From IMG/VR virus record IMGVR_UViG_3300031658_000082, positions 1-27,846 of that record: DNA of 27,846 bases. One strand, written 5' to 3'. This DNA comes from a virus. Shown here in pieces: positions 408 through 27,846 of this stretch. The position numbers and the translations under genes were made by a program. A model generated the notes under the pieces. That model saw nothing but the letters and a program-made list of their open reading frames with translations, was not told where the DNA came from and searched no databases. How positions within the stretch are numbered: position 1 is the stretch's first letter; each line of letters opens with the position of its first letter.

Positions 408-492
408 AAAATTAAAAGGAAAGGTAGTAGAACTAGTTATTGTTGTATGTATAAACATAGCAATAATCTACTACCTATTATCTTTGATTTAG
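394..492 (+). CDS. 32-aa single-span membrane microprotein
   Basis: A short reading frame starts with ATG at 394, inside the end of the upstream 131-aa gene and in another frame, and ends with TAG at 490-492. The 32 residues have a basic N-terminus (KDIKKLKGK) followed by about 20 hydrophobic residues (VVELVIVVCINIAIIYYLL), as in a single-pass membrane protein with N-in topology by the positive-inside rule. The overlapping start suggests translational coupling to the upstream gene. Its stop codon shares two bases (490-491) with the stop of the convergent giant gene, so the two strands are packed with no spacer. Small phage membrane proteins can be holin-like, spanin-like or inhibitors of host membrane proteins, but nothing here decides between these. 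It was found by eye and its translation is unproven. Confidence 0.5.
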   Translation: MKDIKKLKGKVVELVIVVCINIAIIYYLLSLI

Positions 493-3400
493 TCTATATC
501 TATCTTTGATATTTTTTTCATTTCTTTCATTTCTTCGTAAACATCTGGAGCATATTTTTTTAGAGACTCCATAGACATTGATTTTCTTTTTCTTCTAGTT
601 TTCTTCTTTCCCTCTATAACGTATTCTGAATAATTTAACAACCTTAAAATATCTTTTTCTAAGCTTCCGTCTGTTCCTACGTTACTATAATTTTCAAACA
701 TTTTATTAAGAGTTGGAGCAGGTAGCCCTGTTATTGTGGCAGCCTCCATCCAAAAGTCCATAAGAGCTTCCTCTTTCTTTTTATTATCCTTTGTTTTATC
801 AAACTTAATTCTTTTTTCTACTAATCCAGAGAATATCTGTAGCATACCTAAAGACCTTGAAAGGCTTCCAGCCCAAGGCTTTCCTGTAACATAATCTGAA
901 AACATATTAAATACATCTCCTATAACAAATAAAGCATTTAGGTTTCCTAATATAGCTGCCCTCATTAAGTCTGTCTCATCTTCTTCTTCCCAGTCAGCAA
1001 GTAGTCCCGGAAATCCTGCCGCAACGTATTGAAATAGAACTGGCATAAAAACATGATAAGTTAAAAATGTTCTTATGTTTTCCTTTATAGTACCTTTACC
1101 TGCGTTCTTATCCCATTGACTTACCTTTCTAGACAAAGCCCTCACAGCTTGTATCTCTTTTCTTAGATACTGCTTCTGACTTGTCTGGAACATATTTAAA
1201 GATTTCCATATTGCTCCTTTTTTTTGGTAGTAATCCCTGTCCTGTAAGTCTGAGGATTGCTGTGTTCTTTTTGTGTCCTTCTCAAATTTTATTATCGCAT
1301 AATCGATAGCTTGTTGTTCTGTAGCCTTTGGGTTCTTCTTTTTAAACTCAGACTTATAGTAAGAGTAGTTAGGTAGACCTCCAAGCATAATAGCTCCGAT
1401 ATCACCTTTTTTTGTATTCCACATTAAAAAATTAACAGCCCACTGCTTAGCAGGATGAGGTATAAAACTCTTTGTATCTGTTTCATTGTACACCTCAATG
1501 GTATTTAGTATGCTATCGTACTTTCTGTCTTTAAGGTAAACAGAGTTGTCTCTCACCTCTTTCCATACCTTAGCTTGTTCCATTTTGTTTTTAGCAGCAT
1601 ACTTTACCCAGTTTCTGTATCCTATATCATTAGCATAAGTAAACAAAGAGGTTAACTGCTTTATCATTATAACAGGACTTAATGCTATTCTAGATGTTAT
1701 GAACACAGTATTCGCTGCATTGAAAAACTTATCACCTCCTCCTTCAGTCCTTCCTTTATTAGCTATTTTTTTTATAGAATCTGTGATAAGATTCATAACT
1801 TGATTACCGTGTATATCGGTAATTGCTGATTGTATATACTCGTTTTTAAATAACTTATCTATATCACGTATATTCTCTGCATAGGCAGCAAAGTATTCCA
1901 TTTCGTTTACATAAGACGCAAGTGCATCTGTAATATCCAAAGGAATAATAGCTTTATTATTTTTTGTTCTAGCCTTTGTCGATGCAGCTCCTACAGATGT
2001 GTTGTATACTCCATTTCCTGATAGCAAATCTAAAGGTTCTACATCTACTCCTTCTTTCTTTATCTTTCCTGCATAGAATTGATTCCAAGGCATATTAGCT
2101 CTATAAATTTTCTTATACACATCGTTGTAGTGCTCATAAACTTCAGGAAAAAATTCATTTACCTGCCAGTCTGCAAACTTTTTTAAATTAGAGTCTAGTT
2201 TATTCTCCATCTCTTTCATTATACGAGCGTAATCCTTTCCGTAAGTCGTCTCAAAAGATGGGTGGTTAGCAGGGTCTTTGTATTGGTTATACATATAAGC
2301 CATCTCATTAGGAGTCATTCTTATTTCGTTTCCAAAACCATCTACAATACCTGTATTTATTTCAACTCTGTTATTTCTTGATTTTTTACCCCATCTCTTT
2401 CCATATATATCTTGAAGCTTTGTTTTAATCATAGCCTCAACAATCATCTTTCTTTCCTTGAATTTTCTAGAAGATTCGTCTGTCTTTTCTGTGACTAACT
2501 CTTGACTTTTTCCTCCAAAAAGCTCTCCAGGTAGCTTGGATATTTTGTCCATCAATCCATCAAGTGCTTCTGCAGTACCAAACACACCATTATTTATAAA
2601 ATCAAATATTTTAGATATAGCAGTCCTTGCTCTGTTTTTTACTTTTTCAGCTTTAGCATCGCTTTTTCTTTTCCTTTTAGCTGTATCAAGAGTTTCTGAA
2701 GCGTCTTTAGCATCCATATCTACTCTCTCTCCTGTTATGTCTTCGTACAAGTCCGCCCTTTGGTCTCTGTATTTTTGAGCAGCCTCTTGAAGCTCTTGCT
2801 TTAATGCCGACCTACCTTTTGTTATTATATCTGATAGCTCGTTATTTACAAAATCTAAAGATGCGGTTTTATTCATATCCCTGTTATCCATAAGTAATGA
2901 GTTGTTATACTCTATTACTATCTGCATATCCACCATACTGTTTAGCTCTGCATCAGTAGGGTTTGGATTCTTTTGCATCTCGTTCATCTTAGCATTTAGC
3001 TTTTCATTTTCTGCCATTATATCTTCAGCAGTCATAGATTCGTTAGCTAAATTACTTTTTATAGACTCTATTCTTTCTTTAGTCTCTAAGTCTACCTTTA
3101 CACCCTTTAATCTTCCGCTTTCTACCTTATCATACTTTCCTCCAAGTATGTTAAAAATAGCTTTCTCTAAAGCTGCGTTATTCTTTTCAGTAACAAACTC
3201 GGTAACCTCTTGAAACAGGTTATCAATGTTGTCTTGAGTAGCCAAAGAAACCTTTTTCAATAAATCCAATACTTCTTTCTTAGTATAAATATACTTAGGA
3301 AGAGATTTTCTCATAAAGTTTCTAAGCTCTGTTATAACTGAACTAACATCTCTTGCTCCTTTCTTTCTCTGAGAGAGCATGAGTCTAGCTTTTCTTATTT

Positions 3401-6400
3401 TTTCAGACACATTTTTAGTTGGTCTAACACCGGCTCTACCCTCAACGGTAGTTGCCACAGATTGCTGTAGGTCACTAAGCATTTCTATTTGTTGACTTGA
3501 AGGGGATTTTTTTGTTTTTGTAACCTGAGTTCCTTTCTTCTTGCTTCCAACAGTATATGTGTCACCTTCAGCAATAAACTCTGGCTGTGCCTCCATAAAC
3601 TCTATGGTTTTATCTACAATTTCTTGTTCAGATATTTTGTTTTTTCTTTTCTTATTGTTTCTTACCTCTTTTGCTCTAAACTTTGATATCTTATCGAAAA
3701 GTGCCTGCCCTGCTTTTATACCACCTTTCATGTTTTTAAAGCTATCAGGTAGCTCTATAAAAAAGTCAGCCTTAGCTTTCATTTCTTCGTTGACTTCTTT
3801 TAGTGGAAACTTCCTTACTCTTGTCAGGTAATCTTTAATTGCAGCGTCTGTAAAGTTGTTTTCTCTAGCTTCATTAATGATGGTCTGCATTGTCTTATAA
3901 TCATTTGTAAATGTCATAAGCTGCAATGCATCCTCTAATTTCTTAACCTCTGAGTCTTTAAATAATTTTTTCTCAGACATTATATCTACAACTACGGCTT
4001 GAGTAAACTCATCAAGATTCATGTCCTGTATCTGTTCGTTAGTTAACCCTGATATCCCTGTAAGCTTTTTTACAAACTCAAATAAATCACTAAGCCAGTT
4101 TTTGAAATTTCTTTCTGCCGCTGCTGTAGCGAAAGATTCTCCCTTGTCACCTATAGCTGTAGCAAGAGCCTCTTCCAAGATGTACTGATTAATCTCTGCA
4201 TCAGTAGCTCCCTCTTTCTTCATTTTATCCGTAACCCTCTTGTAGTCTTTATTGTTTTTTACTCTATCAACATACTCTGAGTTTTTAATTAAATCAATAC
4301 CTTTTTCGTAAGCATTGTTTTTCATCTCCTTAGCTGTATTAAGCCATATATGACCAAACTCATGAACAGGTGTATTGAAATTTTCTAGTTCAGGGTTTAA
4401 GTATAGTTTTCCATTGTATACCGCACCATATATGGTTTGGTTCTTGGTGGATAATGCTTTTGCACTTAAGTTATCAAGCAAAGAGTTAAACTCTTCTTTA
4501 GTGGCAACAACCTCTACGGAAGGGAAGGACTTAGATAGTCTTTCTACAAACTTAGAGTAACTACTTTTTACATTTTTAGAAACTTTTTCAGCTCTTTTAG
4601 CTCCTTTCATAGCACTAGCGTAAGCACCTGCTCTAGCCTTTTTAGAAGAAGCTTGAGCTCCTTCCTTGTATTTTGAAACTGCTCCTATATTTTTTTCTAT
4701 GAATTTTTTAGTAGATATTTTATCTGATTTTTTTAAATTAAAAGATTCTTTACTTTTAAAATCTTTCCCAGTTTTTACTTGAAGCTCTAAATCTCTACTT
4801 CCGTCTTCATTTATTTTTTCTAAAACCTTAGCTTCTTTTCCTTCGTATTTTGTTGAGAATACATTTCTTGCTTTGATTATTCCTAATACTTTTTTCTCAA
4901 CTATCTCCTTGTAAGAAGGTAATACATCCCAAAATGGAACTGTCTCCTTAAGAACACCAACAACCCTACCTCTTATATATATAGGATAATTAGGATGGCT
5001 TTCCATTCCTTCTTCAGCTTGTTGTTCTCTAGATATTATAGCTTCATTTTTTGTTTTACTTGTAATCTTATTTCCTTTTTTATCTGTAACCTCTAGTACA
5101 ACAGTCATAGCTCCTAATGGCAAATCTCTTACGAGTTCATCAGATAGTTTATTTGATAAATTCTCTAAGTTTAAACCATTATCCTGCATAAACCCTAAAA
5201 CTCCTGATGTAGAATTTACAGTCTTTGATGGTATTATTTTTGAAAAGAAATTTATTTTTTGGTCAACATTAAAATCATTCATATTTTCAAATAACTCAGA
5301 AAGAGTTTTTGATTCATCTATTGCTTTTTTTTCTTTTTCAGATTTTTTAGTCTCACTTTCTTTTATAAGACCAAACAGTTCTTGTTGCTTTTCATTGCTT
5401 AAGCTATCTAAAATCTCTTTCCTAAAAGCTTTGTTAGAGTAGACAGCTTTTGGAGACATATTAAATACAACGCTATAGTCAGAATCTATAGCTCCATTTA
5501 CTATCGAACTTGCTGCTCCTTTCTTCATTGAAGCCCAAGCTACTCTTCCAAATAAGCTATCTATAAATGGGAACATAGGTCCTCCCATGTACTTTCCGTT
5601 GGCAACTAATTGGTCTGCCATAACTAGGTTTATCTTCTTTCCAACCAAGTCTTTTAGTTCCACAGCTCCTAGCTTAGTTTTTTTAAGCATTTCATGAAGT
5701 CTGCTGCCTTCTTTTATCTCAATAGGTATTGATACTGCTTGAGTCTCTTCTACGGTCTTAGACTCGCTATTTATCTTTGGCATTAATTTATTCATCAATG
5801 CCTTTGCTTTCTTTACTAAAGTTTTCTTGTTTGCTGCAGGTTCTTTTGATGCTAATTGAAATTGAACATCTCCATCTGTGTCTTCTTTAAAGAAAGCTTC
5901 TATGTCTCTTACTTCTTGCTCTGAAGATTTATCACTCTCAACTTCTGCTTCAACCTCACTAGTTTTTTGTGTTGCTGGTTTTAAAGCAGCTTCAGGTTTT
6001 GTTTTTGTTTCATTTGCTTGTTTTTTAGCTGTTTCGTATGCTTGATTGTAGTTTTCTATTCTTACACCATCTCCTGCCTTGTAGTCTCCGTTAGGGTCGT
6101 ATGCAAAGAATACATTATCTGGTCTGCTCTTTAATCCTGATTTTTCCCATCCTTCCGGAGCTATCTCTGGGTCAAAAGTCATACGAGCAACAGGTCTAAA
6201 TCCACTTTTTATGTATATATCTTCTAACGTAGTACCCTCTCCTGTTTCTTGGTTTATACCAAAAGCCTCTAGAAATTTACCTCCATTTTCTCTTGCTGCT
6301 TCAATCATTACCTTTGCAGCTCCTCTTTTGCCTGACTTTGGCTGCTTAAATATACCACCTATATATCCATCCTTGGTAACATACCCTCCTGATTTTCCAT

Positions 6401-9400
6401 CCGAAGTCATGAATATTTTACCTCCGTCAGCCTTTATCTTTCTAACTTCCTTTACTGTTAGTGGTGTATCCTGAAGTGCGTCATCAGTTCTCTGAGCCTT
6501 AGCTTCAGCCTGTGACGCAACAAACTCCTCTATCCTGTCTTCTCCAATTTCAATAACCTCATCTGTGGCATAAGCCTCAGCTTTATTGTTAGCTTCTGTT
6601 TGTACAGGTGCTTCTTCTGTGCTGGATTTTCTTGTAAAGAATCCCTTTGCCTTCTCCATTAAAGTTTTAGGTTTCTCTAATCTTTTTTTAGTCTCAGTAA
6701 TTTCACTATCTATAGCTTGCTCTAGAGTAACCTCACTCCCTTTTTTAATTGGCATTTTTAACTGCTCTGGGTTGTTTTCTAAAATCTCTGCTTTATTAGC
6801 CTCTAGTCTTTGTATTTTTTCAGCAGCATATTCTACATCAGTCTTTGAAGATATAGCCTTCATTTTTTCTGTAATCCCAGCTAATTCTTCTTTTTTTGAT
6901 ATAACTAAGTCTGGAGGTATACCCTCTATACTTTTTTCTATTGATTTTTTATCCTTAATTAAACCTATAGCCTCTTTTTTCTGGTCGTTAGTATAGTCTT
7001 TAGGTATCTCTTTCATCACAGACCCTAGCTCACGATAATCGTCTAACTGTTTCTGAGCCTCTGACTTTGTTATTTCCTTGTTAGCTATTTTACTTTTTAG
7101 AGAGGATACAAATAAAGAATTAAAGTTATCATCCTTTGATACCTTATCAAACATCTCAAAAATTCCGTTAGGTAAATCCATTCCCTTACCCGTGTTAAAA
7201 GCACTCACGACAGCTCCTGGAGCAGTCATAGCAAAACCACCTATAGCTTCCTGACCACCAGCTTCTAATACCTGAATACCACCCTCCACCAAACTTTCTG
7301 GTGTCTGAAACATAGCAACCTCACTATTTTTAATTGTGTTATATAGACCTTTTATAGTTATATCAGAAACTTCTTGCGAAGCACCAGTTAAAAATTCTCC
7401 TGCTGCTGCTTTACCAGTTTTCTTACCAAATTCTTTTACAGCTTCTAAGGCTGTTCTTTCCAGTGTTTGTTTGATTAGTAATGCATCTGCATTTTTAGGT
7501 ATTTTATTAAAAGCATCCAAAAGAACCTTGTTCATAAATCCTGTGTTTTTAAACATAGACTCAAAACCAACCTTTTCTAATGCTGCACCAATTATTGCTG
7601 CAGGTAATTTAACTGCTAACTTTTCTGCTTCAGTTAAATCTGCATACCCCTCCATTCCTCTAAACTCTTCTTCTATAGCTGAAAAAGTCATAGCCCCTTG
7701 AGCTATACCAACCCTCATAGATGCACTCATAACCCCAGCAGAACCAATTCCTAAAGCCATAGATGGTAAACTCTTTACCATACCTATTAAAGCTCCTCCT
7801 ATAAAAGAATCTTGTTCAAGGGCACTTATAGCTGCCTCCGTACTCCCAAACCACTCTAGGTCTTTTGTTATAGCAGCCTTACCCTCATACAGTGCGTCTC
7901 TAGCATCAGCAATACCTGTACCCTCAAACCCTGCGTAATACCCTGCAACACCTGCCACTGAAAGTCCAAAATCAGCAACACCTGTCCCTATATCTACAAC
8001 TCCCTTAATAAGACTCTGAGCTACAATAGATTTAACATCCCACTTCTCTTTTTCCCATTCTAAATATTCCCCTGTAAGTTTGTTTAAATCGGATTGAGTT
8101 TCTTTTATGCTTTTTTTCGATTCTTTTACTTTTGATAATAAACTTAAAAGCTCAATACTTTTTTCATTATACCCTTGGTCTGAAAAATTCATCTCTTTAA
8201 GTTCAGCAGCCAAGTTTACTGTTTTAGAGTAGTCGTCTTTAAACTGCTCAAGTTCATTGTTTAGACCATTCTGTCTTTTTAGTAAATCTTTTTCATCAAT
8301 AATTGTTTGAACCTTTTCATTTGATTTTTGATAAAATTTGTTTTCTTTTTCTAGTATTACTTCATTTTCAATCCTGTTATCCTCTAAAAATGATTTTAGA
8401 TTTTTAGCCTCACCCTTATCACTAAACCATGTATCTATATCTACATATACTTCCTTTCCGTTTTTAGAATATCCTTTTAAAGACTCTCCAACACTAGTTT
8501 CTTCAAAAGAAAATCCATATTGATTAAATAGCTTATTAAGTTGAGCTACAGTTGCCTCTTCTGATTTTTCGTCAATCATTTCTGGAGTTATTGTAATAAT
8601 AGCTCTCTCGAAAGGGTCTTTTGATGTTTTTTGTTTAAATTCTAGAGACATTTGACCTTCATAGCCTTCAGGAATTTTAGCTTTTAAAGCGTCAATTTCA
8701 AACTGCTTAGCTTCTCTCTCTTCATCGGTAACTGTGTAAATCTTTTTGTTTATTTCACTAATCAATTCCTGTTTTTTGGCAGCATCTTCAGGAAGTTCTA
8801 AAGTTTCTTTAAGATTGATGTCAATAGCAGCCTCTCTAGGTAAAAGATTTTCATCTAAATTATACTCTCCACCGTACTCTCTTAACTCTTGAACTTGCTC
8901 TCTAGTTACAGGTTTTTCTCCGTTTTGAATCCATTGAGGTGTATCTGATTTCCAAATAGCTATTCTGTCGTTTGAAAATTCATCTTCAGGGTTATATTCT
9001 GGAGCTTTAGGAAACATTATGTCCAAGTAATCCTTTTCATCTCTAGGGACAAACTCCTTTACGTTTGCTCTTAATAAATCGTCTTTATTTTTCCTTTCCG
9101 TCTCTAATTTACCCGTAGCTTCTATCTGCTTATCACGAGTATCAATTTGACCAGGAGTAAAACCTAAATTACTTTCATCAATGGTTTTCTGAATTTCCTC
9201 CGTATTAATTCCACCTTCAGGTAGATTGTATACTTCGGGTTGACTACTTACTGGAACAGAAGATTCCGCAGAGGTAGGTTCTTCCACCACTTGTTCTGTA
9301 GGTGAAACCGTACCTTCCCTTGGAGAAGTAACCTCTGAATTTTCTTTTTTTTTTACTTCAGAAAAAGTTGATTCAAATTCTTCCTTACTCGAAAACATAC

Positions 9401-9527: not shown

Positions 9528-9529
9528 AT

Positions 9530-11270: not shown

Positions 11271-12077
11271 TTATTGATAAGGAGAAAAAACTCCAATATT
11301 AAAAGGGTCGTTCTGTAGCATTTGATTGGGATTTTTTCTGTTAGGCATTCCTAGTGTACCATAAAATTGATTAGGATAACTTAATTGGTCTCTACCTATA
11401 TCATTATATGAATACCCTCCTGTTATCGGAGTAAAGTCTTGCCTATTTTCTAGTCCTTTACTTTCTGCTTTAGAAAGAGTAGGTCCAGACATCGTTCTTG
11501 CGTTTTTGTCTTTTTTATACAAACCAGGAAGTGCTATAGCTCCTTCTATAGTGTTTACAGCTCCCTGTATACCTTGTTGGATTGCTTGCTGTCTAGCCGC
11601 AGAAGCTTGAGCAGATTGCTGCTGAGCACCTGATATTTCACCCATATCTAACTGAGCGTTTATGTCTCTAAGCCTTGAATCTTCCTCGGCACTTGCTGCT
11701 TCTAGGTTGAACAAGTCTCTATTCATCTGGTCTCTTATGACTCCCTGAGCCTGCTGTTGAGCTGCTAATATTCTTCCCGTATTAGCTGCTGCACCTCTTT
11801 CAGAACCCTCAACCGAAGTCTGCTGTGCCTGTGCCCCTGCAGCCAACATAGCCTCCCTTTCTCTTTGGTAAGGTTCTTTATTGATAGCCAACTCATCCAT
11901 GTAATTTACCTCAAGTCTTTTTCTTGCGTCAGCCATATACTGAGCCGCCTTTGCGTCAGCCTTCTTCATTGCCTTCTTTTGAGAACTAGCCTGAGCGAAA
12001 GACATTCCTGTTCCTACTGCTGCGCTTGCTACACCTGCTATTGCTGCTACTGTTGCTACTGTTGTTGCTGCTGCCAT
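11271..12077 (-). CDS. Small membrane-active internal virion protein, T7 gp14-like position
   Basis: A 268-aa protein. Residues 1-32 are an Ala/Val/Gly/Thr-rich hydrophobic segment with small-residue spacing (AIAGVASAAVGTGMSFAQAS), like a glycine-zipper membrane helix. It continues into an amphipathic Ala/Gln/Arg-rich coiled-coil region (32-180) with many Gln runs, then a polar Asn/Tyr/Pro-rich tail (190-268). T7 gp14 and related ejection proteins have this plan: a short hydrophobic N-terminal part and a Gln/Ala-rich helix that enters the outer membrane. No lysine/arginine-flanked signal peptide or cleavage site is clear. It starts one base after the stop of the GNAT gene, within the ejection cassette. 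The A-rich spacer (taat) precedes the ATG. Function is inferred from composition and synteny. Confidence 0.72.
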   Translation of the reverse strand: MAAATTVATVAAIAGVASAAVGTGMSFAQASSQKKAMKKADAKAAQYMADARKRLEVNYMDELAINKEPYQREREAMLAAGAQAQQTSVEGSERGAAANTGRILAAQQQAQGVIRDQMNRDLFNLEAASAEEDSRLRDINAQLDMGEISGAQQQSAQASAARQQAIQQGIQGAVNTIEGAIALPGLYKKDKNARTMSGPTLSKAESKGLENRQDFTPITGGYSYNDIGRDQLSYPNQFYGTLGMPNRKNPNQMLQNDPFNIGVFSPYQ

Positions 12078-19055: not shown

Positions 19056-19993
19056 TATGCTTGTGTTTGATTTTCTTTTTGTTCTTCTCCATTTGCGAAT
19101 TGTGATACGCTTGCTTCTCTTATTGAAATACCTGCATACTGCAATATCTTAGTCACCAGTGTAACCTCGTCATCCAACGGAAGCTCGAAGTCTTGATAAT
19201 CAGATTGACTTGCATCAAACGCAGGCTCACCATTTGCTAAAACAATATAAGTCCACTTTGGTTCTTTTGGATACCTAATGTACTGAGCTAATACCTGCCC
19301 ATCGTTTTTCATTTTCTTAGGAAATATTGAAGCTGCTCCTGACTCCTCTGTGTAAACAGGGAATATTTCAGATGGTGCTGTAAACGGACTACTATTAAGC
19401 ATTGTTATTTTGCTATGACCTACCCTCTCTGCTTCGTTCTGAACCGATGAGAATATAGAATAATCTCCTGGTAAAGATGTAAATATATCACCATCTAAGG
19501 ATAGAACCGTGTCGCTCACTATTGCAGTTACTTCTGCTGAGGAATAAGTGGTCGTGTTAACCACAACATCTCCAATAGCTACAGTAGCCGTAAAAGTAGC
19601 TGTTAAGTCTACTAATTGATTTGCAGAAACTGATGTGATAGTTCCGTTAACTCTAAACGTCTGGTAGGCTAATATTTTATTAATTAAATAGTAATCCTCT
19701 CCCGTTGTCGTTGCCGATGGTAAGAAAAATTTATTAGCGTTACTATATCTAAGGTAGTCTGTTTTACTAAACTCATCAATTACCTCCTCTAATCCTTTTG
19801 TAATATCCGCATAGCCTGTTCCTGAAGAGCGTTTATTTTCCTTGTTTATCTGGTAGTTATACTGATAAAAATAACTTTCAAATATATCCATCTGAGCTTG
19901 CTTTGAAAACAAGTTAAAATCTGATGGAGATAAATATCCGTAGTTATTTTTATTTAGTACAGACAGTACCGTATTTCTAACTGTGTTTATCAT
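19055..19993 (-). CDS. Conserved virion protein, probable connector component
   Basis: A 312-aa protein when read from ATG at 19993. An in-frame TTG at 20020 is rejected because a promoter -7 box (20008-20015) lies inside that extension. It opens 'MINTVRNTVLSVLNKNNYGY' (1-20), then 'LSPSDFNLFSKQAQMDIFES' (21-40) and 'GTGYADITKGLEEVID' (58-73), a helical block I recall from flavophage structural clusters. A beta module (about 114-183, with 'AIGDVVVN' and 'AEVTAIVSDT') follows. The C-terminal half contains 'KWTYIVLANGEPAFD' and ends Gln/Glu-rich. It is the first gene after the strong terminator and promoter, and is coupled to the adaptor gene by a TAATG overlap, so a connector or head-completion role is likely. 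The exact role is unknown. Confidence 0.7.
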   Translation of the reverse strand: MINTVRNTVLSVLNKNNYGYLSPSDFNLFSKQAQMDIFESYFYQYNYQINKENKRSSGTGYADITKGLEEVIDEFSKTDYLRYSNANKFFLPSATTTGEDYYLINKILAYQTFRVNGTITSVSANQLVDLTATFTATVAIGDVVVNTTTYSSAEVTAIVSDTVLSLDGDIFTSLPGDYSIFSSVQNEAERVGHSKITMLNSSPFTAPSEIFPVYTEESGAASIFPKKMKNDGQVLAQYIRYPKEPKWTYIVLANGEPAFDASQSDYQDFELPLDDEVTLVTKILQYAGISIREASVSQFANGEEQKENQTQA

Positions 19994-20007
19994 CCTTTGC
20001 TTTTTTA

Positions 20008-20015
20008 CAAAGATA
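20008..20015 (-). promoter_or_regulatory. Bacteroidota -7 box driving the connector-tail-ejection operon
   Basis: The minus strand reads TATCTTTG, a full match to TAnnTTTG, 14 bases before the ATG at 19993. It directly follows the U-tract of the terminator at 20019-20049, so it is placed to restart transcription for everything downstream. A -33 TTG is not obvious; a T-run occupies part of that position. Support is the box, its position and the start choice it implies. Confidence 0.6.
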
Positions 20016-20018
20016 AGC

Positions 20019-20049
20019 AAAAAAAAAGAGGAGCATAAAAATGCTCCTC
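20019..20049 (-). terminator. Strong rho-independent terminator
   Basis: On the minus strand a perfect 9-bp stem (GAGGAGCAT / ATGCTCCTC) closes a TTTT loop and is followed at once by nine T residues. It lies 31 bases past the stop of the 248-aa gene (20081) and separates the head genes from the connector-tail-ejection genes. Confidence 0.9.
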
Positions 20050-20080: not shown

Positions 20081-20827
20081 TTATAATAAATTTTCAAGCA
20101 TTTTCAATGATTCTAGACCATCGTCACTTGATAAGTAAGAAGCTACCGTCTCCTTGGAATCATTTCCGTAAGGAACTGTTAGCATTCTTGTTTTATTTGA
20201 GGATGTGTTGTACCAAACCTCTGTATTATTTTTTCTGAAAGATATTAAACCTTTATCAAAAAATAACTGAACATTACCCTGTAACTGTAGATTAGGGTCT
20301 GTTAGTGTGTCTAAAAAGTATTCAGGTTCTCTTTTTGCAAAAACCAATATATCACGCCTTACTTCGGCAGTAGACATCTTTGATGTGTCTCTTCCAAATA
20401 GTACTCTGCTTATATTTTCAAGCATATTAACGTCAAGTTCTTTTGCAGCTATAAGTGCATCAATTTCTAGGTTGAGTATTTCAACATCTATTGAGGCATC
20501 TTTTTCATTGTCAATCTCTACGAACTTAACCCCATTAAGTGGGTGGTAGTGTAAAAACTCTTGAAGTACTGGATTTGTTCTTGGAACGCTTAACATTCCG
20601 TCTTCAAATACCACAGGCTGTAATATTGCATTATCATCCTGTTCATCTTCAAATGGTGTCTTTTGGTTTGATGAGTAACGAAGTACTCTGTTAGAGTTGG
20701 TGTCTTCGTCAAAATACATTAAAGGAAACTTTCTTGAGTTCCTTGTAGGCAGCATGTAAGAAAGAGGAGCTGCGTCTCTTGTTAGTTTGTAGAACTTATC
20801 TACACTTTTTGTTTTTTTCTTTGTCAT
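20081..20827 (-). CDS. Conserved head-module protein of unknown function
   Basis: A 248-aa soluble protein with a basic start (MTKKKTKSVDKFYKLTRDAA). It then has 'FPLMYFDEDTNSNRVLRYS' (34-52), 'NQKTPFEDEQDDNAIL' (54-69) and 'NPVLQEFLHYHPLNGVKF' (85-102), which I recall as a conserved core next to the capsid gene in marine Bacteroidota phages. 'VRRDILVFAKREPEYFLDTL' (156-175) is helical. No enzyme motif is seen. The gene sits between two terminators and has no visible promoter of its own, so it is probably made by readthrough from the capsid gene at lower level. It could be a minor head, head-completion or DNA-binding protein; sequence alone does not decide. Confidence 0.7.
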   Translation of the reverse strand: MTKKKTKSVDKFYKLTRDAAPLSYMLPTRNSRKFPLMYFDEDTNSNRVLRYSSNQKTPFEDEQDDNAILQPVVFEDGMLSVPRTNPVLQEFLHYHPLNGVKFVEIDNEKDASIDVEILNLEIDALIAAKELDVNMLENISRVLFGRDTSKMSTAEVRRDILVFAKREPEYFLDTLTDPNLQLQGNVQLFFDKGLISFRKNNTEVWYNTSSNKTRMLTVPYGNDSKETVASYLSSDDGLESLKMLENLL

Positions 20828-20904: not shown

Positions 20905-22317
20905 TTAGTCTTGGAATAAGAAGAAGTTGTTTGCACCTAAAGTACATACAGCTCTCTCAGACAAGAAGTTCACTTCCATAGCATCTAAATCGCTAGTCTG
21001 TGCACCACCTGCTGAACCTGTAATCCATGTCTTGTAACGTCTGTCTTCAGTTTCAGAAGCTCTGTATCTAACGTGTAAGAATGGTCTCTTAGCGTTTTTC
21101 CCCATAACTTGGTCATAAACAGATGTAGAACCTGCTGGAACTAATAGTCCGCTTACAGCTCCTGTTGCTAATCCACCTCTCATTGTTGGGTCGTTTAAGT
21201 ACTTCCAATCTGACTTGTAGAAATCGTATCCTCTTCTGAATCCTGTGAATCCTAAGTTAAGAGCCATCTCTTTGTCATTATCGAAAAGACCGTAAGATGT
21301 ACCTCCTGAACCGTAAGAGTTCTGACTAGCTAACATATCGTCAATACCGAAACCAAAGTCTCTGTCTACAAACAATACATTTTCTTCGATAGCACCCTGC
21401 TTGTCTAATCTAGATACAACACTATCCCACTCTAATAAAGAAACTGGAAAACCACCTCCCCATACGTTTCCTCTGTTTTCAACAGAATAGAAGATACCTT
21501 CAGAACCTTTAGCTGCTGCTGCGTTTACAGCATTTGTGTTAGCCATTGGTACAGCCTCAATCATTGAAGTTTCCAAGTAGTCATCGAATCTCAAACGAGT
21601 TTCGTGCTCAGACTTCAAGTACCATAAGTATCCGTTAGCTCCGTTTTCAGTAGTAACCTCAACCCATCCAATTTGAGCCATATCAGAACCTGATACTGCA
21701 TACTTATCTTTTAAGATAATTGGAGAGTTTTCAAAGATTGAACTATCAGCCTCTAAAGAACCTTGCATTCCATTTGTTCCTTTTTTGAATTCAGAACCGT
21801 AAATGAATACGCTTAAAACCTCTGCTGCTGCAAAAGCCTGTCCTGCTGCTTCATAGTAAGCTACTGTAAAAGTACTTCCTGTTGGTACTGCAGTAACGAT
21901 AGCCTTATTAGAACCTGTCGCTCCTGAAACCATTACAGTCTGTCCTACTCTGATTGCGATAGAAACATCAGCGTTAGCAACTAAAGGATTAGTTCCTGGT
22001 ACGCCTGCGTCTGCTACTGTAAATGTAGCCACGTCATCTCCTACTAATGCAGTTGTAGTTACGTTAGTGTATTTTGTGTGTAGTCTTCCTTGCTCTGACC
22101 ACTTGATAAGGTCTGAGTTAGAAGGCATTTCAGCTCCTACCATTCTTAAGAATGAAGATACTGTTCTGTTACCATATCTTTCGAATTCTTTCTCGTAAGT
22201 ATCTGGAAGATACTGATTCAAGAAATCAAAGTTGGTAATGTAGTTTGTTGCCGTAGGGACTTGTTGAGCACTTGGCTGTAAATCAAATCCTGGCGTTGCA
22301 TTTACTTGTCCTGCCAT
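20905..22317 (-). CDS. Major capsid protein (HK97-fold expected)
   Basis: A 470-aa protein placed after a scaffold-like gene and before a terminator, as phage major capsid genes usually are. The N-terminus ('TNYITNFDFLNQYLPDTYEK', 24-43, then 'EFERYGNRTVSSFLRMVGAE') is helical. Residues about 85-175 form a beta-rich insertion ('RVGQTVMVSGATGSNKAIVT', 123-142). The rest has 'GYLWYLKSEHETRLRFDDYLE' near 225-245 and a C-terminus ending 'VCTLGANNFFLFQD'. Gene order, length and Ala/Gly/Thr-rich codon-regular composition match crAss-like capsid proteins; the HK97 fold is inferred from family. An A-run leader precedes the ATG, as expected for strong translation in Bacteroidota. There is no sign of a cleaved prodomain. 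Confidence 0.82.
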   Translation of the reverse strand: MAGQVNATPGFDLQPSAQQVPTATNYITNFDFLNQYLPDTYEKEFERYGNRTVSSFLRMVGAEMPSNSDLIKWSEQGRLHTKYTNVTTTALVGDDVATFTVADAGVPGTNPLVANADVSIAIRVGQTVMVSGATGSNKAIVTAVPTGSTFTVAYYEAAGQAFAAAEVLSVFIYGSEFKKGTNGMQGSLEADSSIFENSPIILKDKYAVSGSDMAQIGWVEVTTENGANGYLWYLKSEHETRLRFDDYLETSMIEAVPMANTNAVNAAAAKGSEGIFYSVENRGNVWGGGFPVSLLEWDSVVSRLDKQGAIEENVLFVDRDFGFGIDDMLASQNSYGSGGTSYGLFDNDKEMALNLGFTGFRRGYDFYKSDWKYLNDPTMRGGLATGAVSGLLVPAGSTSVYDQVMGKNAKRPFLHVRYRASETEDRRYKTWITGSAGGAQTSDLDAMEVNFLSERAVCTLGANNFFLFQD

Positions 22318-22336: not shown

Positions 22337-23449
22337 TTATTTTTTACTTCTTATTTTTAAGCCTTTCCCAGCTCCTGGGTTTAAAGCTTTAAATTGAGTC
22401 CCCCCTTTAGAGTTGAAGTTAGGCGTTGAACGCTCAGACATATTCACGTTCTTAGTCTTTCGCATTACATCATCTACTGCCTCCGATTTACCTTGCTCGT
22501 AAAAGAACTTAGCAAATTTTTCAGGGTTCATCGCTACGGCTAATGACTTGTGGTATCCGACAGCGTCTTTAAGTAACCCATCATCATCCAAGAACTTCTT
22601 AATGAAATTCTGTGGAGTCTCTTGAATTGACTTTAATTCTGCTGCATCACCAGGAGAGAATGAAACCTTCTTGTTATCATCAAGGGAAAACTCAAAACCT
22701 TTGAACTCTCCTCCGAAAACTTCGTCAGTCTTCTTCATAAACCATTCAGATTTACGATTTGCTTCCTCCTCATAAGTGGTCGCCTGTTGAACATACTGCT
22801 TATACTCCTCTAAACCCCTTGCGTCTTCTTCAGAAATAGAACTCCCACTTGACTCAAGAGGAATCCTGTATTTTTCTTTTTCAGACTCAAAGTATTCTTT
22901 AGCCTTGGCAATAGTTTTCTTTTTATTTATTTTAATCTTCTTAATATCTGACTCCTCATCGTAGTCTTCATCGTAATTGTAGTCCTCCATTAAAGCATCA
23001 ATATCTTCGCTATCTAGCCCTTTCTCTGTAGCTGCCAAGTAATCCCTTAACAAATTGTCAGGGTCTTGCGAATCAATATCTCTATTTAACTTAACAAAGT
23101 CATTAATATCTCTACCTGTTTCTTGTTTGTACTTATAATAAGCAGCAACATCTTCGGGTAAATTAACTTCAGAACTTTCTTTTTCAGCAGTAATCTCTTC
23201 TAATGAAGATAACTCCCTTCCGTATTTATTCTTAATAAATGAAAGGATATCCTCCTCCCTTAATTCAGTATCTGTAACTATATTTTCTTCGGCTACATCT
23301 TCTTCTAAAGGAGCGTTAACATTTTCTGTTACACTTGTAACCTCTGGCTCACCGTTAAACTTCTCTTCGTGTTTAACTAAAAGGTCTCTTTCAATTTCTT
23401 GAGTAGACTTCTCTTCTCCTTGTACGACTTCTCTTACTTTAATTTCCAT
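22337..23449 (-). CDS. Capsid scaffold-like protein
   Basis: A 370-aa, very charged protein. The N-terminal half is Glu/Asp-rich ('TELREEDILSFIKNKYGREL' is typical; acidic cluster 'EDYNYDEDYDEESDIKK' near 158-174). A Lys-rich helix follows ('KINKKKTIAKAKEYFESEK', about 173-191), then a helical region and a basic tail (ending 'GKGLKIRSKK'). An acidic helical body with a basic C-terminus that could bind capsid subunits, and a position between portal and capsid genes, are the usual features of phage scaffolds (T7 gp9). A 19-base gap separates it from the capsid gene, so the two share the promoter at 23469-23476. No protease motif is present. Scaffold is inferred from composition and position. 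Confidence 0.72.
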   Translation of the reverse strand: MEIKVREVVQGEEKSTQEIERDLLVKHEEKFNGEPEVTSVTENVNAPLEEDVAEENIVTDTELREEDILSFIKNKYGRELSSLEEITAEKESSEVNLPEDVAAYYKYKQETGRDINDFVKLNRDIDSQDPDNLLRDYLAATEKGLDSEDIDALMEDYNYDEDYDEESDIKKIKINKKKTIAKAKEYFESEKEKYRIPLESSGSSISEEDARGLEEYKQYVQQATTYEEEANRKSEWFMKKTDEVFGGEFKGFEFSLDDNKKVSFSPGDAAELKSIQETPQNFIKKFLDDDGLLKDAVGYHKSLAVAMNPEKFAKFFYEQGKSEAVDDVMRKTKNVNMSERSTPNFNSKGGTQFKALNPGAGKGLKIRSKK

Positions 23450-23493: not shown

Positions 23494-25929
23494 CTATCTA
23501 GGATTGAACTCAGCGAAGTCAAAACCATCAAGGCTATCTTCGTTAGATTCAAAATTGACAGGTGGTAAATTATTTTTTCTTTGCTCGATTAATTTTGATT
23601 GTTGTGTACTCTGCTGGCTTATTCTTTTGGATTTAGCATCCTCCTTCATAACCTCTTTATCTTTTACAGCATTAACCTCCACTCCCTTAAGCTGCATCTG
23701 TAAAGAAAATTCTTTATCCATTAGCTCTACTTTTAATTGAGCCTCTCTCTCCATCTTTATCATCAACCCATCTATCTCAGATTGATTAATCTGCATCTTA
23801 GATTGAGTCTCAGCCTGTATCTTCTGCATAGCTGTTTGAGCAGCAAGTTGTTGCGATTGCTGTTGCTGTTGTGCTTGCATAGCCTGATTCTGCATAGCCA
23901 TCTTTTCTTCTCTCTCTTGCTTATTAATACGCTTCATTTTTAGAAGCTGATTAGCTAACTTAAGATTCTTTATCTCTCTAATATCAATAGCATCTTCAAG
24001 GTTGATGTCTGCTTTAGATAAAGCAATTTGTATATTCTGCTCAAGCATTGCTTTTTGCTCTTCGTCTGGAGCTATTTCAATAAAAATACCAAAGTCATAA
24101 ATATATAAATCTGAAATCTCATTTAATATTCCTACATTGTACTTCCCTATCTTATTTATAAAGTCCTCCTTAAAATCAGAATACTGTAATATATCTGCAA
24201 CCCTATACGATATACCTTCAGATAGTGCTCTATAAATATAAAGACTTCCATCTAATATATGCCTAGTAGCAGTGTTAGAGTTTAATGCTGCTAACTTCTG
24301 AACGCCTACTAAAGCATTTGAGTCAGGTGTTGAACCATCTCTAGCTTCATTAAGACCAGTTACAGAACGAATCATGTTTAAGTAATGATTATAGTTACCT
24401 ATAAGCATCTGCATCTTGCTTGCACCAGAATTAGATGTAAGTTGCTGAATTGGAACTCTTGCGTTGTTAAATTCTCCATCTTGAGTATACGACCTACCAA
24501 TAACAGAACCTGTTTGGAAGTATAACTTTAAAGCATCCTCTGGATTGTATGCAGCACCTGTCCCCAGGTCTACCTCGTTTAACCCATCTGCATCAATAAA
24601 GACACCATCAGGGACAACCTTAGCAATTACCTGCTGTATTTTTAAATGAGTAATTTGTATTAAATCTGCAAAAGGAATCATCCTTCTAACTAAAGACTCA
24701 ATGTTACCCTTGTACATTCTTGGAGCACAAGCCACGTAGTTAGGAATAGCGTGCTGAGATGAAGACTTTGGTCTCACCATATTTTCAGCCATTTCCCACT
24801 TAAGAATGATATTTGTCCCCATAACCATAACGCCATCATACCAAACGTCAATAGTTTTTGAAACTTTTTCAAACTTAGCTTCTTCCATCATTTCATCAGG
24901 AGGATTAAACCCATCATCCTTTTCTATCATTTTTATGTTTCCGTTATCAGAAACCTTCTTCTTGTATACTATATTTTTAGTGGTCTTGTAGTTGAAGTAA
25001 AGAAGAGTAGCCGTGTCTTGACTAAAGATATCATTGTCATAATTCTGAGCCACGTTATAGTAATCGTACCAACTCTGACCACTTTTAGATATAGTCTCTA
25101 ACTGTTCGTTAGTTATCGTAGGGTCAATCTTTCTTATCTCATTAACGTGAACAGATTTAATCTCTCCCCAATAAAAACAATCCTTAAAGTGAGGGTCTTC
25201 TGTGTAACTATAAACCACATTTGCTGGGTCTACGTACTTAATCTCTACTCCTGAACCTGGTAAAAACTCGTGCTTTGCAATAGACACTCCTAATACGGTT
25301 AAATCGTAATCAAGCCTCTTTCTTAAGTCAATGTATTTGTTTTCCTCTAGTATAGTGTTAATAGCCTCTTCCTCTGCTATTTCAATAGCAGGCTTAAAAT
25401 TAAGCTGCATATAAAGAGATAGTTCTTCGTCTGTCTTAGGCAAAGTTTCTGGGTCTACAACAAAAGGATTAGCTCCAGTCTTCTCCTGAATAATATCAAG
25501 AATAGGCTTTGCAATCATTTGCTTTTCAAGAGTCTTCTGATACTTGTTCCTGTTAGATTGAGATAGTGCGTCCTGAGAGTAAGCCTTAACTTTAAATAAT
25601 CTGTCAGACATTCCGTTAACAACAATATCTACAAACTTAGGTAGTATTGGAACTGGTGTCCAGTCAAGGTTTAAGTAAGATAAGTCTCCATCAACCGAAA
25701 TCTCGTTCTTGTACTTACCCACAGACTGTTCCCCTCTAGCGTATAACCTTAACCTATTAAATTCTCTTGATTGCTCATAGAATCTACAGTTATTACTATC
25801 TTTTTTAAACCACTCATACTGAATAGCTTGACCAATCTGCAAACCAAATTCTTCTGTTTTTTTCTCTGCATCAGATGCAAATTGATTAGGAAAACTTGTT
25901 GACTTTATATTTACGTTTATTTCTTTCAT
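23494..25929 (-). CDS. Portal protein
   Basis: An 811-aa crAss-like portal: the dodecameric gate for DNA at one capsid vertex. Recognisable parts are 'LNLDWTPVPILPKFVDIVVN' (86-105) followed by 'GMSDRLF', 'CFYWGEIKSVH', and 'LNEARDGSTPDSNALVGVQK' in the core, which I recall from this portal group. The last 130 residues form a Gln/Lys/Glu-rich coiled coil with a CAA/CAG-encoded run (QAQQQQQSQQLAAQT, DNA about 23841-23880), and the C-terminus is 'FESNEDSLDGFDFAEFNPR'. Its ATG overlaps the terminase stop (ATGA), so the two are translationally coupled. The stop is TAG, an indication that TAG is not recoded in late genes. The length is usual for the group. Confidence 0.88.
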   Translation of the reverse strand: MKEINVNIKSTSFPNQFASDAEKKTEEFGLQIGQAIQYEWFKKDSNNCRFYEQSREFNRLRLYARGEQSVGKYKNEISVDGDLSYLNLDWTPVPILPKFVDIVVNGMSDRLFKVKAYSQDALSQSNRNKYQKTLEKQMIAKPILDIIQEKTGANPFVVDPETLPKTDEELSLYMQLNFKPAIEIAEEEAINTILEENKYIDLRKRLDYDLTVLGVSIAKHEFLPGSGVEIKYVDPANVVYSYTEDPHFKDCFYWGEIKSVHVNEIRKIDPTITNEQLETISKSGQSWYDYYNVAQNYDNDIFSQDTATLLYFNYKTTKNIVYKKKVSDNGNIKMIEKDDGFNPPDEMMEEAKFEKVSKTIDVWYDGVMVMGTNIILKWEMAENMVRPKSSSQHAIPNYVACAPRMYKGNIESLVRRMIPFADLIQITHLKIQQVIAKVVPDGVFIDADGLNEVDLGTGAAYNPEDALKLYFQTGSVIGRSYTQDGEFNNARVPIQQLTSNSGASKMQMLIGNYNHYLNMIRSVTGLNEARDGSTPDSNALVGVQKLAALNSNTATRHILDGSLYIYRALSEGISYRVADILQYSDFKEDFINKIGKYNVGILNEISDLYIYDFGIFIEIAPDEEQKAMLEQNIQIALSKADINLEDAIDIREIKNLKLANQLLKMKRINKQEREEKMAMQNQAMQAQQQQQSQQLAAQTAMQKIQAETQSKMQINQSEIDGLMIKMEREAQLKVELMDKEFSLQMQLKGVEVNAVKDKEVMKEDAKSKRISQQSTQQSKLIEQRKNNLPPVNFESNEDSLDGFDFAEFNPR

Positions 25930-27846
25930 CTAATTATTTGGCTACGATTTCCATCATTACTATACCTTGCAAAGGTAATACTTATTTTTGATTGTGTTTT
26001 TTCAGTCTGGTAAAGATTTTTTTGACAAGCCATTATTGCTAGTCCAGAGCTAATAGACGCATCGTGTTTAGTTCTGTTGTTAATGTCAAACCTTGCCCAA
26101 TCCTGCAGCGTTCTGTTGAATGCCATAGAACCTATGTCTTCAGAATTTCTAAAAGCTCCATCCGTATCAAATCCAACGTGTTTTTCTATGTAAGACTCAA
26201 TAGCTGCTGCGTGAGCTTGCTTTATGTCCTCAGATGAGTTAGGTATCCCACCAAGCTCCTTCTCTGTCTTAGAGAGCTTGTTATATACCTTATCTGGTCT
26301 GTTTACAGAAAATCCTCTGTAGCCTCTATTTTTTAAGTGATATAAAAGCCTCGGCTTATTGTTCTCCACAAGAATAGGCATACCATAAAAAACACAAGCC
26401 ATCAAAACATCCTCAAAGAATATTTCTGCCGTCTGAGGTCTAGCTATGTACTCTAAGAAAAATTCGTTGCTAGGTGCTTCATCCATGTTAAACTTCGTCA
26501 GTCCGTGAAGAGAACCGTTAGAACCTCCACCACCAACAGTACCCGATATGTCATAACTATCGCAACCAAACGCACCAATGTGTTCGTTACCAGGATACTT
26601 AATACCATTCTTTACTATTATATTGTTTTGTAAACCCTTATTAGGAGTCCATCCGACATAAAACCTTCCACTCGTATCAGGACTGAAGATAACCTTGCTA
26701 TCCTTAATACCATCCTTCCAATGAAAAGAACCCCTTGTTACGTGATGTTCTGATATTAAAGTGTCGTTATAGTCTATCTGCTGATATATCTTTGTAAGGT
26801 TAAATATTGATTGCTTACTCTCATCCCTAAACGCATGAGATTCCGTTCTTGGAAACTGTCTATAAAATTCATTCAATGCGTCAGCGTCACTCTTTAAGGA
26901 GTCTACCTCTGCCTGCCAATAGTCAATCGCTCCCTCTGTAATCATTTCACCGTCAATACCAAGGATAGGTTTTTCTGGAGTATCAAAAACAGGCATTCCA
27001 TGCATGTCAATAAACCCCTCCATGTTCCACTCCATTGGAATAAACAACGAATACATCCCACTCTTTGTCTGACCGTTCCTGTTCCTTTTAGTAATGTCTG
27101 AATCCTCGTATAATTTTTTGAAATTTCCACCCCCCTTGCTTAAAGCATTTGAAGTAGAACCCATCATGCACTTACCTATAATCTTACTACCCAAACGTAA
27201 ACAAGTTTTTGTTACACGCCAGTTGTTTAGTATATTATTTGGCTTAATCCATTTCCCACTTTCATCGTGAACCAATAAAAGTAATTTTTCTCCATCATAA
27301 CTGTTATCATCCGTGTTCTTCCAATCGACTGTCGTATCAAGACCTTGCATGTCGTCATTCAAAACAGTAAACATATTTTTCTTTGTAATCTTAGACGCAG
27401 GAACTCTAAATGCTAATTCAGTCTTAGGCTTATCCATACCATCCATAATTGGCTTAAAGAAGAAAGGAAGCCTACTGTTTATAGGAACTACCTTGTCTGT
27501 AAACATCTTCTTAGCATCACTACCAGTCTTGGATAGTATACCAACTCTTGAATCATTAGCCAGAGTACCTACGTTTACGCACTCAGAAGAACCCATAAAT
27601 GAAAATCCTGAACGTCTTATCTTTAAGTAGTCCATCCCAAAGCTTCTTTTATCAGCCCTGCATGCTTCCCAATAAATCCAAAAAATTCTATTAGCCTCTC
27701 TAAAGTCAGGATAACCAACATCAATAGATGCCCACTGGAGGTACATGTAATGAGAGCCTGTCACGTAAGACGGAACTCCGTTATTCTTAAAGAACATTCC
27801 ACTCTCCCTGTAATCAAACTCCTGCTCAATGTAATCAACCCACCTG
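25926..27846 (-). CDS. terL: Terminase large subunit, 5' end beyond the window
   Basis: The reading frame has no stop up to the window edge. An internal ATG at 27797 is not taken as the start because 16 codons upstream ('RWVDYIEQEFDYRESG') continue the family pattern. The ATPase has an adenine-side 'YLKIRRSGFSFMGSS' (RRSG at 27606-27617) in place of a standard Walker A, a Walker B 'LLLLVHDES' (Asp-Glu at 27261-27266) and a coupling motif 'CMMGSTSN'. The nuclease shows 'FGCDSYD' (Asp at 26559-26561), a glutamate in 'ILVENN' and a C-terminal 'KHDASISSGLAIMA'. This layout fits crAss-like terminases, which cut and pump DNA into the procapsid. The portal gene overlaps its stop by four bases. No small terminase gene is in the window. 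Confidence 0.88.
   Translation of the reverse strand, partial: RWVDYIEQEFDYRESGMFFKNNGVPSYVTGSHYMYLQWASIDVGYPDFREANRIFWIYWEACRADKRSFGMDYLKIRRSGFSFMGSSECVNVGTLANDSRVGILSKTGSDAKKMFTDKVVPINSRLPFFFKPIMDGMDKPKTELAFRVPASKITKKNMFTVLNDDMQGLDTTVDWKNTDDNSYDGEKLLLLVHDESGKWIKPNNILNNWRVTKTCLRLGSKIIGKCMMGSTSNALSKGGGNFKKLYEDSDITKRNRNGQTKSGMYSLFIPMEWNMEGFIDMHGMPVFDTPEKPILGIDGEMITEGAIDYWQAEVDSLKSDADALNEFYRQFPRTESHAFRDESKQSIFNLTKIYQQIDYNDTLISEHHVTRGSFHWKDGIKDSKVIFSPDTSGRFYVGWTPNKGLQNNIIVKNGIKYPGNEHIGAFGCDSYDISGTVGGGGSNGSLHGLTKFNMDEAPSNEFFLEYIARPQTAEIFFEDVLMACVFYGMPILVENNKPRLLYHLKNRGYRGFSVNRPDKVYNKLSKTEKELGGIPNSSEDIKQAHAAAIESYIEKHVGFDTDGAFRNSEDIGSMAFNRTLQDWARFDINNRTKHDASISSGLAIMACQKNLYQTEKTQSKISITFARYSNDGNRSQIIR

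Follow-up and report, generated by a model that had tools for sequence, protein, structure and literature searches.

A putative DNA-ejection cluster beside a GNAT-fold gene in a podovirus related to crassviruses

The stretch of viral DNA analyzed here, which we call the window, is a 27,846-base fragment from IMG/VR (record IMGVR_UViG_3300031658_000082) that covers about half of the genome of an uncultured phage, with the genes for packaging, head, tail, and probable ejection, and ends after a giant gene. The last genes of this module encode a 137-amino-acid (aa) protein with a predicted GNAT fold and three neighbors of increasing size: the small protein S268, the medium protein M574, and a giant protein of 3012 aa. 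With a probability of roughly 75%, S268, M574, and the giant constitute a machine that is ejected ahead of the DNA. That they work like gp14 to gp16 of phage T7 is well supported; homology that would make them members of the T7 gp14 to gp16 families was looked for at the sequence level and not found. A preliminary description of this DNA had compared the last three genes with T7 genes 14 to 16. Its ejection reading gains from virion annotation in relatives, gene order, protein sizes, and the hydrophobic N terminus of the small protein, and loses on sequence homology and on the transglycosylase domain. For the most part, the cluster adds one more instance of a type of system already known. Its unusual feature is that a GNAT-type gene recurs immediately ahead of the small ejection gene, published T7-like phages included. 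The four genes, all read leftward, are as follows.

12079 to 12492, minus strand: 137-aa GNAT-fold protein at the T7 gene 13 position, ATG at 12492 (AlphaFold2 [AF2] model, predicted local distance difference test [pLDDT] 92.9; PDB Z 15.8; phrog_17252, 7.6e-36; phi40:1 gp098 annotated by tandem mass spectrometry [MS/MS])
11271 to 12077, minus strand: S268, small, N-terminally hydrophobic, like gp14 in position and composition (phrog_13764 "virion structural protein," 3.4e-16; phi18:3 gp120 is in this family)
9530 to 11254, minus strand: M574, medium, positional counterpart of gp15 and crAss gp46 (AF2 pLDDT 75; weak Foldseek matches to crAss-like proteins; same-position phi18:3 and phi40:1 proteins annotated by MS/MS)
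489 to 9527, minus strand: giant protein, 3012 aa, gp16 position (HExxH at residue 1722; two clusters of hydrophobic segments; 25% identity over 1036 aa to Gundel gp074)

Virion annotation in isolated relatives

Virion presence was taken from record annotations. In phi40:1 (Pervagoviridae), the proteins at all four positions, gp098 (GNAT position), gp099 (small), gp100 (medium), and gp101 (giant), are annotated as experimentally detected by MS/MS; in phi18:3 (Pachyviridae), gp120, gp121, and gp123 carry this annotation, which makes three of the four positions. Absence from virions would have spoken against an ejection machine, and both records point the other way as far as presence in the particle is concerned.

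Several links tie the window to these isolates. Family phrog_17252 is common to the GNAT-fold proteins of the window, phi18:3, and phi38:1, and gp098 of phi38:1 is identical to gp098 of phi40:1. S268 and phi18:3 gp120 share phrog_13764, and an S268 profile to which elemo was added reaches gp120 (3.6e-12). Among the giants, gp074 of Gundel serves as a bridge: it has 25% identity to the window protein over 1036 aa (1.5e-38), and other parts of it match phi18:3, phi38:1, and elemo (2e-12 to 9e-16). The only check made on phi40:1 gp101 found that it differs from phi38:1 gp101. As for M574, its presence in virions rests on position, because the medium proteins of the isolates cannot be aligned with it.

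The same annotations bear on whether the four proteins are fiber, lysis, or replication proteins instead. We regard this as extremely improbable: no point in its support was found, and the Pfam, PHROG, and PDB scans returned no family of these kinds above chance, a match to which the preliminary description would have counted against its reading.

Conservation of the gene order

A terminase search gave 87 phage records, each with a place covering at least 80% of the query, at 33 to 77% identity among the matches listed. The nearest named record is ctfjg026 (Podoviridae sp., Manatee Spring; 77%), followed by Elemovirus (Flavobacterium), Maribacter phage Panino, and Cellulophaga and Tenacibaculum phages of the Pachyviridae and Pervagoviridae. 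The group is widespread, since a scan of IMG/VR with the muzzle protein matched at least 598 related stretches, of which the best 80 were used. We surveyed 86 related loci, 5 of them named and 81 from IMG/VR; 57 include a complete S268 gene.

An M574 counterpart comes next after S268 in all 57 loci, which are mutually related and do not amount to 57 independent events. Within 1.2 kb downstream, an open reading frame (ORF) of at least 600 aa, often running off the contig, is present in 46/46 testable loci; the other 11 are too short. The GNAT gene directly precedes the S268 gene in 50 of the 57 (in locus L046 as a 78-aa ORF only), and phi18:3 keeps it with three small genes between it and the small gene. 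The order muzzle, GNAT, small, medium, giant was found both in the annotated relatives and in the surveyed loci. It is not a product of chance, since the annotations of ctfjg026, elemoE, phi38:1, phi18:3, and Panino give the same order, in some cases with genes inserted. The gene order is a conserved organization of podoviruses of Flavobacteria (Elemovirus, Pachyviridae, and Pervagoviridae) that are related to Crassvirales.

Some loci vary at the GNAT position. In L073 (9321 to 9836) and L080 (16465 to 16983), a 171- to 172-aa ORF occupies the slot, and the two begin differently. In Tenacibaculum phage Gundel_1 (15381 to 15791), gp071 at the GNAT position adjoins the small gene on the opposite strand. 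Outside the cluster, five relatives (L002 to L006) encode a GroES-type chaperonin, and the annotated regions of ctfjg026 and Panino also include GroEL; GroES immediately precedes the terminase gene in elemoE, phi38:1, and Panino.

Properties of S268 and M574

S268 resembles T7 gp14 in position, in its N-terminal hydrophobic stretch, and in its Ala/Gln-rich composition; with P22 gp7 it shares position and composition. In 53/53 members of the S268 family, the 19-residue stretch of greatest hydrophobicity begins within the first 40 residues, with Kyte-Doolittle values of at least 1.3 in 48 and at least 1.6 in 14 of them; in T7 gp14, this stretch spans residues 1 to 19. Contents of at least 16% Ala and 9% Gln, a cut chosen after looking at the proteins and applied to families of related members, were reached by 89 of 1,440 distinct ORFs of at least 180 aa in the loci compared, and 88 of these 89 belong to the S268, T7 gp14, or P22 gp7 families (28/53, 9/14, and 51/57 members, respectively, against 1/1,316 other ORFs).

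M574 is similar to the medium protein of ctfjg026 (1.6e-38; 29% over 377 aa). Its AF2 model (pLDDT 75) has three long N-terminal helices. Compared with the PDB, the model gave no match above Z 4.9, and T7 gp15 was not among the matches listed, a test that is limited at this pLDDT and excludes nothing. In a Foldseek search, 16 nameless matches (E of at most 0.001) came first, and 5 of the next 11 were named crAss-like or cr-phage. The match from cr128_1 has 571 aa, and the sole 571-aa gene annotated in cr128_1 is a gp46 homologue.

The giant protein and the cargo alternative

Hydrophobic segments of the giant cluster at residues 510 to 655 and 2604 to 2872, to be compared with 330 to 408 and 1133 to 1207 in T7 gp16. 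Between the two clusters lies a metallopeptidase-like HExxH motif (residue 1722), which is kept in similar surroundings in ctfjg026, Gundel, and two IMG/VR loci (L012 and L077) and in other surroundings in elemo. Giants of the group vary greatly in length and parts (1691 to 3859 aa). This makes the enzymatic part exchangeable, and the core function cannot depend on it. A Pfam scan of the window giant gave no match, so that no transglycosylase domain of the T7 gp16 type was found, and a PDB sequence search gave 0 matches. Such a domain is also described as missing in P22 (PMC8954989). Two further observations concern single giants: that of elemo (18852 to 29936 of its locus) carries DUF3293 (1e-12), and residues 1011 to 1115 of the window giant have a weak match to phrog_2563 (0.0019).

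Polyvalent proteins are reportedly giant, modular proteins with metallopeptidase and other domains that are injected into the host. The window giant has the HExxH motif and the modular exchange, and no named domain was recognized in it. In an alternative reading, S268, M574, and the giant are crAss-type cargo, that is, early effectors rather than builders of a channel across the envelope, with the giant as a polyvalent effector and the tail doing the rest. The shared HExxH motif (window, ctfjg026, Gundel, L012, and L077), DUF3293 in elemo, and the differing lengths and parts of the giants favor it, as does the RNA-polymerase-related cargo described for crAss001 (PMC10172136). Yet the small hydrophobic protein and the medium protein occur together in 57/57 loci, as a core machine would, and the crAss001 authors, in their account of gp45 and gp46, also expect these proteins to take part in channel formation (PMC10172136). 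We consider the cargo alternative rather unlikely.

Observations at odds with an ejection machine

The case for an ejection machine has to be set against a number of findings. Foremost, S268, M574, and GNAT family profiles compared by hhalign with T7, P22, N4, crAss001, and phi14:2 gave nothing above background, although the positive control (crAss gp45 against phi14:2 g069) reached 96.7%. The giant fared no better against T7 gp15 and gp16, P22 gp20 and gp16, N4 gp50, gp51, and gp53, crAss001 gp45, gp46, and gp47, and phi14:2 g067 (best probability, 0.8%). These misses are weak, because the N4 and phi14:2 profiles are single sequences and the T7 profiles comprise 11 to 15 close relatives. PDB sequence searches with the S268, M574, and GNAT profiles yielded 0 matches each. 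The profile search that the preliminary description had proposed thus did not bring out homology to T7 gp14, gp15, or gp16.

The likenesses have exceptions as well. Only 28/53 S268 members pass the post hoc Ala/Gln cut; the S268 counterparts of four isolates have 9.7 to 15.5% Ala, and two of them have 6.0 to 7.6% Gln. The most hydrophobic stretch of P22 gp7 lies at residues 190 to 208 and is not N-terminal. Each crAss-like Foldseek match of M574 is weak (probability, 0.10 to 0.47) and cannot be set against a background rate of crAss-like proteins in the database. HExxH is absent from the giants of phi18:3 and phi38:1, and the GNAT gene is missing from its slot in 6/57 loci (L032, L043, L045, L073, L076, and L080).

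Finally, the links to proteins annotated in virions have gaps. The GNAT protein of phi18:3, gp116, bears no MS/MS annotation. An S268 profile from its own group alone misses phi18:3 gp120 (it gives 1.9e-8 for elemo, 0.0022 for phi38:1, and 0.29 for Panino), the window giant has no direct profile match to phi18:3 gp123, and for M574, no sequence similarity is detectable with its counterparts in phi18:3, phi38:1, and elemo.

The GNAT-fold protein

From its model (pLDDT 92.9), we are confident that the 137-aa protein is predicted to have a GNAT fold. The best PDB match is ArgA (Z 15.8; 127 residues at 2.1 Å), with Ard1 and RimI next, and the GNAT identity given in the preliminary description is thereby upheld. 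No established role for this protein was found in the open-licence papers searched.

The acetyl-CoA motif [QR]xxGx[GA] is absent from 50/50 members of the window family and from 54/54 members of the P22 gp14 family, and it is present in 9/11 T7 gp13 members, as RLSGKA. Of two Pfam-positive GNATs used as controls, only phiKMV ORF28 has the motif, SP6 gp28 being without it; for this reason, absence of the motif need not mean absence of activity. Activity as an acetyltransferase on phage or host proteins would fit the confident predicted fold close to N-terminal acetyltransferases, the RLSGKA motif of T7 gp13, and a T7-like phage with an acetyltransferase in the gene 13 position (PMC10142737). 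Against this stands the uniform lack of the motif in the window family, imperfect as this test is, and we think activity doubtful.

The window GNAT family and T7 gp13 align collinearly from end to end over 108 columns, above 40/40 column shuffles and 16/16 decoy families, with an hhalign probability of 1 to 3%. This is the sole one of ten pairs to exceed all 40 shuffles, and only 16 decoy families could be built. The shuffle test has low power: SP6 gp28 and phiKMV ORF28 do not rise above their shuffles (28/40 reach the score locally and 23/40 globally). P22 gp14 and the window family are at background locally (17/40 shuffles reach the score), and T7 gp13 and P22 gp14 have a short N-terminal local match (1/40) and nothing global (13/40). 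We take the alignment with T7 gp13 as a hint only. Neither T7 gp13 nor P22 gp14 was recognizable among the 50 BFVD matches listed for the GNAT model, many of which lack names. In Pfam, DUF2824 or Phage_T7_Gp13 is reportedly assigned to the acetyltransferase clan.

GNAT-type genes occur at the same place in published T7-like phages. Pseudomonas phage G11 is described as having an acetyltransferase, ORF39, between gp12-like and gp14-like genes (PMC10142737), and a "putative acetyltransferase, DUF2833" directly before "internal virion B" is given for phage YA3 (PMC7326022). Unlike in phi40:1, the protein in the gene 13 position is not among the nine virion proteins given for G11 (PMC10142737), nor is it in the 11 table rows of the phiPsa17 proteome (PMC4517105). 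Among the open-licence papers searched, none was found that links the GNAT-before-ejection-gene arrangement across T7-like and crAss-related phages.

A Bacteroidota-type promoter word, TATATTTG (12499 to 12506, minus strand), stands about 7 bases before the GNAT start, and T7 offers its promoter phi13 for comparison. The word is no evidence for a promoter here, because it is not enriched over the other strand (20 occurrences on the coding strand against 17).

Proposed course of ejection

Under the ejection reading, S268, M574, and the giant would be packed inside the virion and leave it before the DNA. S268 would most likely be the first out, inserting in the outer envelope through its hydrophobic N terminus, as proposed for T7 gp14. 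M574, with its three long predicted N-terminal helices, would most likely make or line a conduit, as T7 gp15 does and as proposed for crAss gp46. The giant would most likely reach the inner membrane and the cytoplasm, bringing an enzymatic payload that is exchangeable, in the manner of T7 gp16 or polyvalent proteins. For the GNAT-fold protein, the most likely part is that of a degenerate acetyltransferase that serves in loading or assembling the ejection set and is sometimes kept in the particle.

An ejection machine of this kind would extend the idea of ejection proteins to a widespread phage group with isolates. Whether a single machine underlies crAss-type cargo and T7-type ejectosomes becomes testable in a phage whose cassette is small and ordered, and attention is drawn to a little-noticed GNAT protein beside ejection genes.

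Remaining genes and relation to crassviruses

From 27797 down to 489, the listed genes are all on the minus strand, and the leftward order from portal to giant given in the preliminary description agrees with the ORF positions. A short ORF at 12 to 407 lies on the opposite strand. The genes before the cluster are listed below; PHROG labels are consistent with the terminase, portal, and virion structural assignments.

25926 to 27797, minus strand: large terminase (TerL), open at the contig end (phrog_6681, 3.5e-158; 77% identity to ctfjg026 and 33 to 48% to isolates)
23494 to 25929, minus strand: portal protein, 811 aa (phrog_6547, 8.6e-148)
22337 to 23449, minus strand: 370-aa acidic protein, possible scaffold by position only (phrog_16786, 7e-11; isoelectric point [pI] 4.68)
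20905 to 22317, minus strand: major capsid protein, 470 aa, named by position (phrog_13704 "virion structural protein," 4.2e-105; phi18:3 gp104 and phi40:1 gp093 at the same position annotated by MS/MS)
20081 to 20827, minus strand: 248-aa homologue of crAss001 gp33 (hhalign probability 100%, E 1e-46, 234 columns)
19055 to 20020, minus strand: ring/adaptor-type protein 1, named by position (phrog_14543, 3.7e-35)
18135 to 19055, minus strand: ring/adaptor-type protein 2, named by position (phrog_13977, 5.5e-56)
13526 to 18133, minus strand: muzzle/nozzle protein, 1535 aa (phrog_14478, 2e-206; N-terminal part aligns with the phi14:2 muzzle, 73%)
13336 to 13515, minus strand: 59-aa stub ORF (profile matches near the N terminus of 67/71 distinct proteins)
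12514 to 13326, minus strand: 270-aa protein with a C-terminal muzzle domain (Pfam crAss_MUZ_C, 7.6e-17; crAss001 gp44 residues 1200 to 1282, 93%)

Relative to T7, the 248-aa protein, the second ring-position protein, the 59-aa ORF, and the 270-aa protein are extra. The pI of the 370-aa protein is as a scaffold would have; against a pure scaffold, phi40:1 gp092 at the same position is annotated as a virion protein by MS/MS.

The window comes from a podovirus of Bacteroidota, of the Elemovirus/Pachyviridae/Pervagoviridae group, and more distantly related to crassviruses. Homology to crAss001 gp33 is clear for the 248-aa protein, whose gene follows that of the capsid. The muzzle that marks Crassvirales is present, as judged from Pfam crAss_MUZ_C and profile alignments, and is split over two genes, because the C-terminal domain is in the 270-aa protein and the N-terminal part of the phi14:2 muzzle has its match in the 1535-aa protein. 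The preliminary description had also called the portal and adaptor crAss-like. The portal is so only weakly (5 to 7% over about 250 collinear columns), yet its matches were the two best of the 25 crAss proteins tried; the adaptor claim is not borne out, with best profile probabilities of 4.1% for ring 1 and 2.7% for ring 2. Nothing was found for the capsid against crAss profiles (best probability, 0.7%). Several crAss profiles in these structural comparisons were built from one to four sequences, which makes the misses weak. No RNA-polymerase cargo gene was recognized in the window, which stops after the giant gene. The named relatives are not listed under Crassvirales in their records; predicted capsid and terminase structures are described as linking Pachyviridae and Pervagoviridae to Crassvirales (PMC9855967).

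The 59-aa ORF is a conserved N-terminal domain, and the full gene, of up to 552 aa in relatives, lies between the muzzle and the 270-aa gene. The domain falls within the first 20 residues in 67 of the 71 proteins, and the other 4, muzzle proteins, have it near residues 1470 to 1500. The stub may serve to dock an exchangeable tail-tip body.

Comparison with known systems

Proteins ejected ahead of the DNA are known for T7 and P22 (PMC8954989), and a comparison of crassvirus cargo with T7 ejection proteins, including a proposed part of gp45 and gp46 in channel formation, is already in print (PMC10172136). Only the GNAT-small-medium-large part of the likeness to T7 is informative, since the order portal, scaffold, capsid, adaptor, nozzle is general to podoviruses, P22 being much alike. 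The likeness as a whole may even be general podovirus order, with parallel selection as all that links the modules, to which we give somewhat less than even odds. No homology was found between the modules, the P22 and N4 orders are related but not equal, no GNAT gene is annotated between the muzzle and cargo genes of crAss001 and phi14:2, and in SP6 and phiKMV the GNAT gene is upstream of the portal, with none annotated in the gene 13 position. On the other hand, a GNAT-type gene directly before a small ejection gene recurs in separate lineages, and the window GNAT family aligns with T7 gp13 beyond all shuffles and decoys, although at an hhalign probability of only 1 to 3% and in one of ten pairs. 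A tentative and rather improbable extension is that GNAT, small Ala/Gln-rich, medium, and large genes form one ancient podoviral ejection cassette of T7-like, P22-like, and crAss-related phages, beyond sequence recognition, in which the GNAT protein, originally an acetyltransferase, turned into a loading factor for the ejection proteins and, in the crAss-related branch, came to lack its cofactor site.

T7 genes 8 to 16 share the order, gp13 (138 aa) and gp14 (196 aa) compare with 137 and 268 aa in the window, and gp14, like S268, is a small, N-terminally hydrophobic, Ala/Gln-rich protein; in contrast, there is no significant sequence similarity, no transglycosylase domain was found in the window, the medium protein is shorter, and the giant is longer. 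P22 genes 14, 7, 20, and 16 likewise place a 151-aa gene before small, medium, and large ejection genes, and gp7 is Ala/Gln-rich; yet its hydrophobic stretch is elsewhere, sequence similarity is lacking, and P22 gp14 corresponds to the GNAT protein by position.

With crAss001, the window shares the gp33 homologue, a muzzle with the C-terminal muzzle domain, and a place for the cargo genes directly after the muzzle. The crAss001 muzzle is unsplit, however, no GNAT gene stands between muzzle and cargo, gp45 and gp46 cannot be aligned with S268 and M574, and the RNA-polymerase-related cargo has no recognized counterpart in the window.

The Flavobacteria phages are closer. By position, phi40:1/phi38:1 and phi18:3 have the order from TerL to giant, and their small and GNAT proteins belong to the PHROG families of the window; they differ in a medium protein that cannot be aligned and a shorter giant, without HExxH in phi38:1 and phi18:3. 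In addition, genes are inserted in phi18:3, three of which separate the GNAT gene from the small gene, and phi38:1 has no separate gene for the muzzle C terminus. The closest named records, ctfjg026 and the Flavobacterium Elemovirus, carry the same cassette. elemoE has no separate muzzle C-terminal gene, and ctfjg026 (77% in TerL, 45% over 123 aa in the small protein, and 29% over 377 aa in the medium protein) has a 183-aa gene at the site of the 59-aa stub, and its giant reaches 3859 aa.

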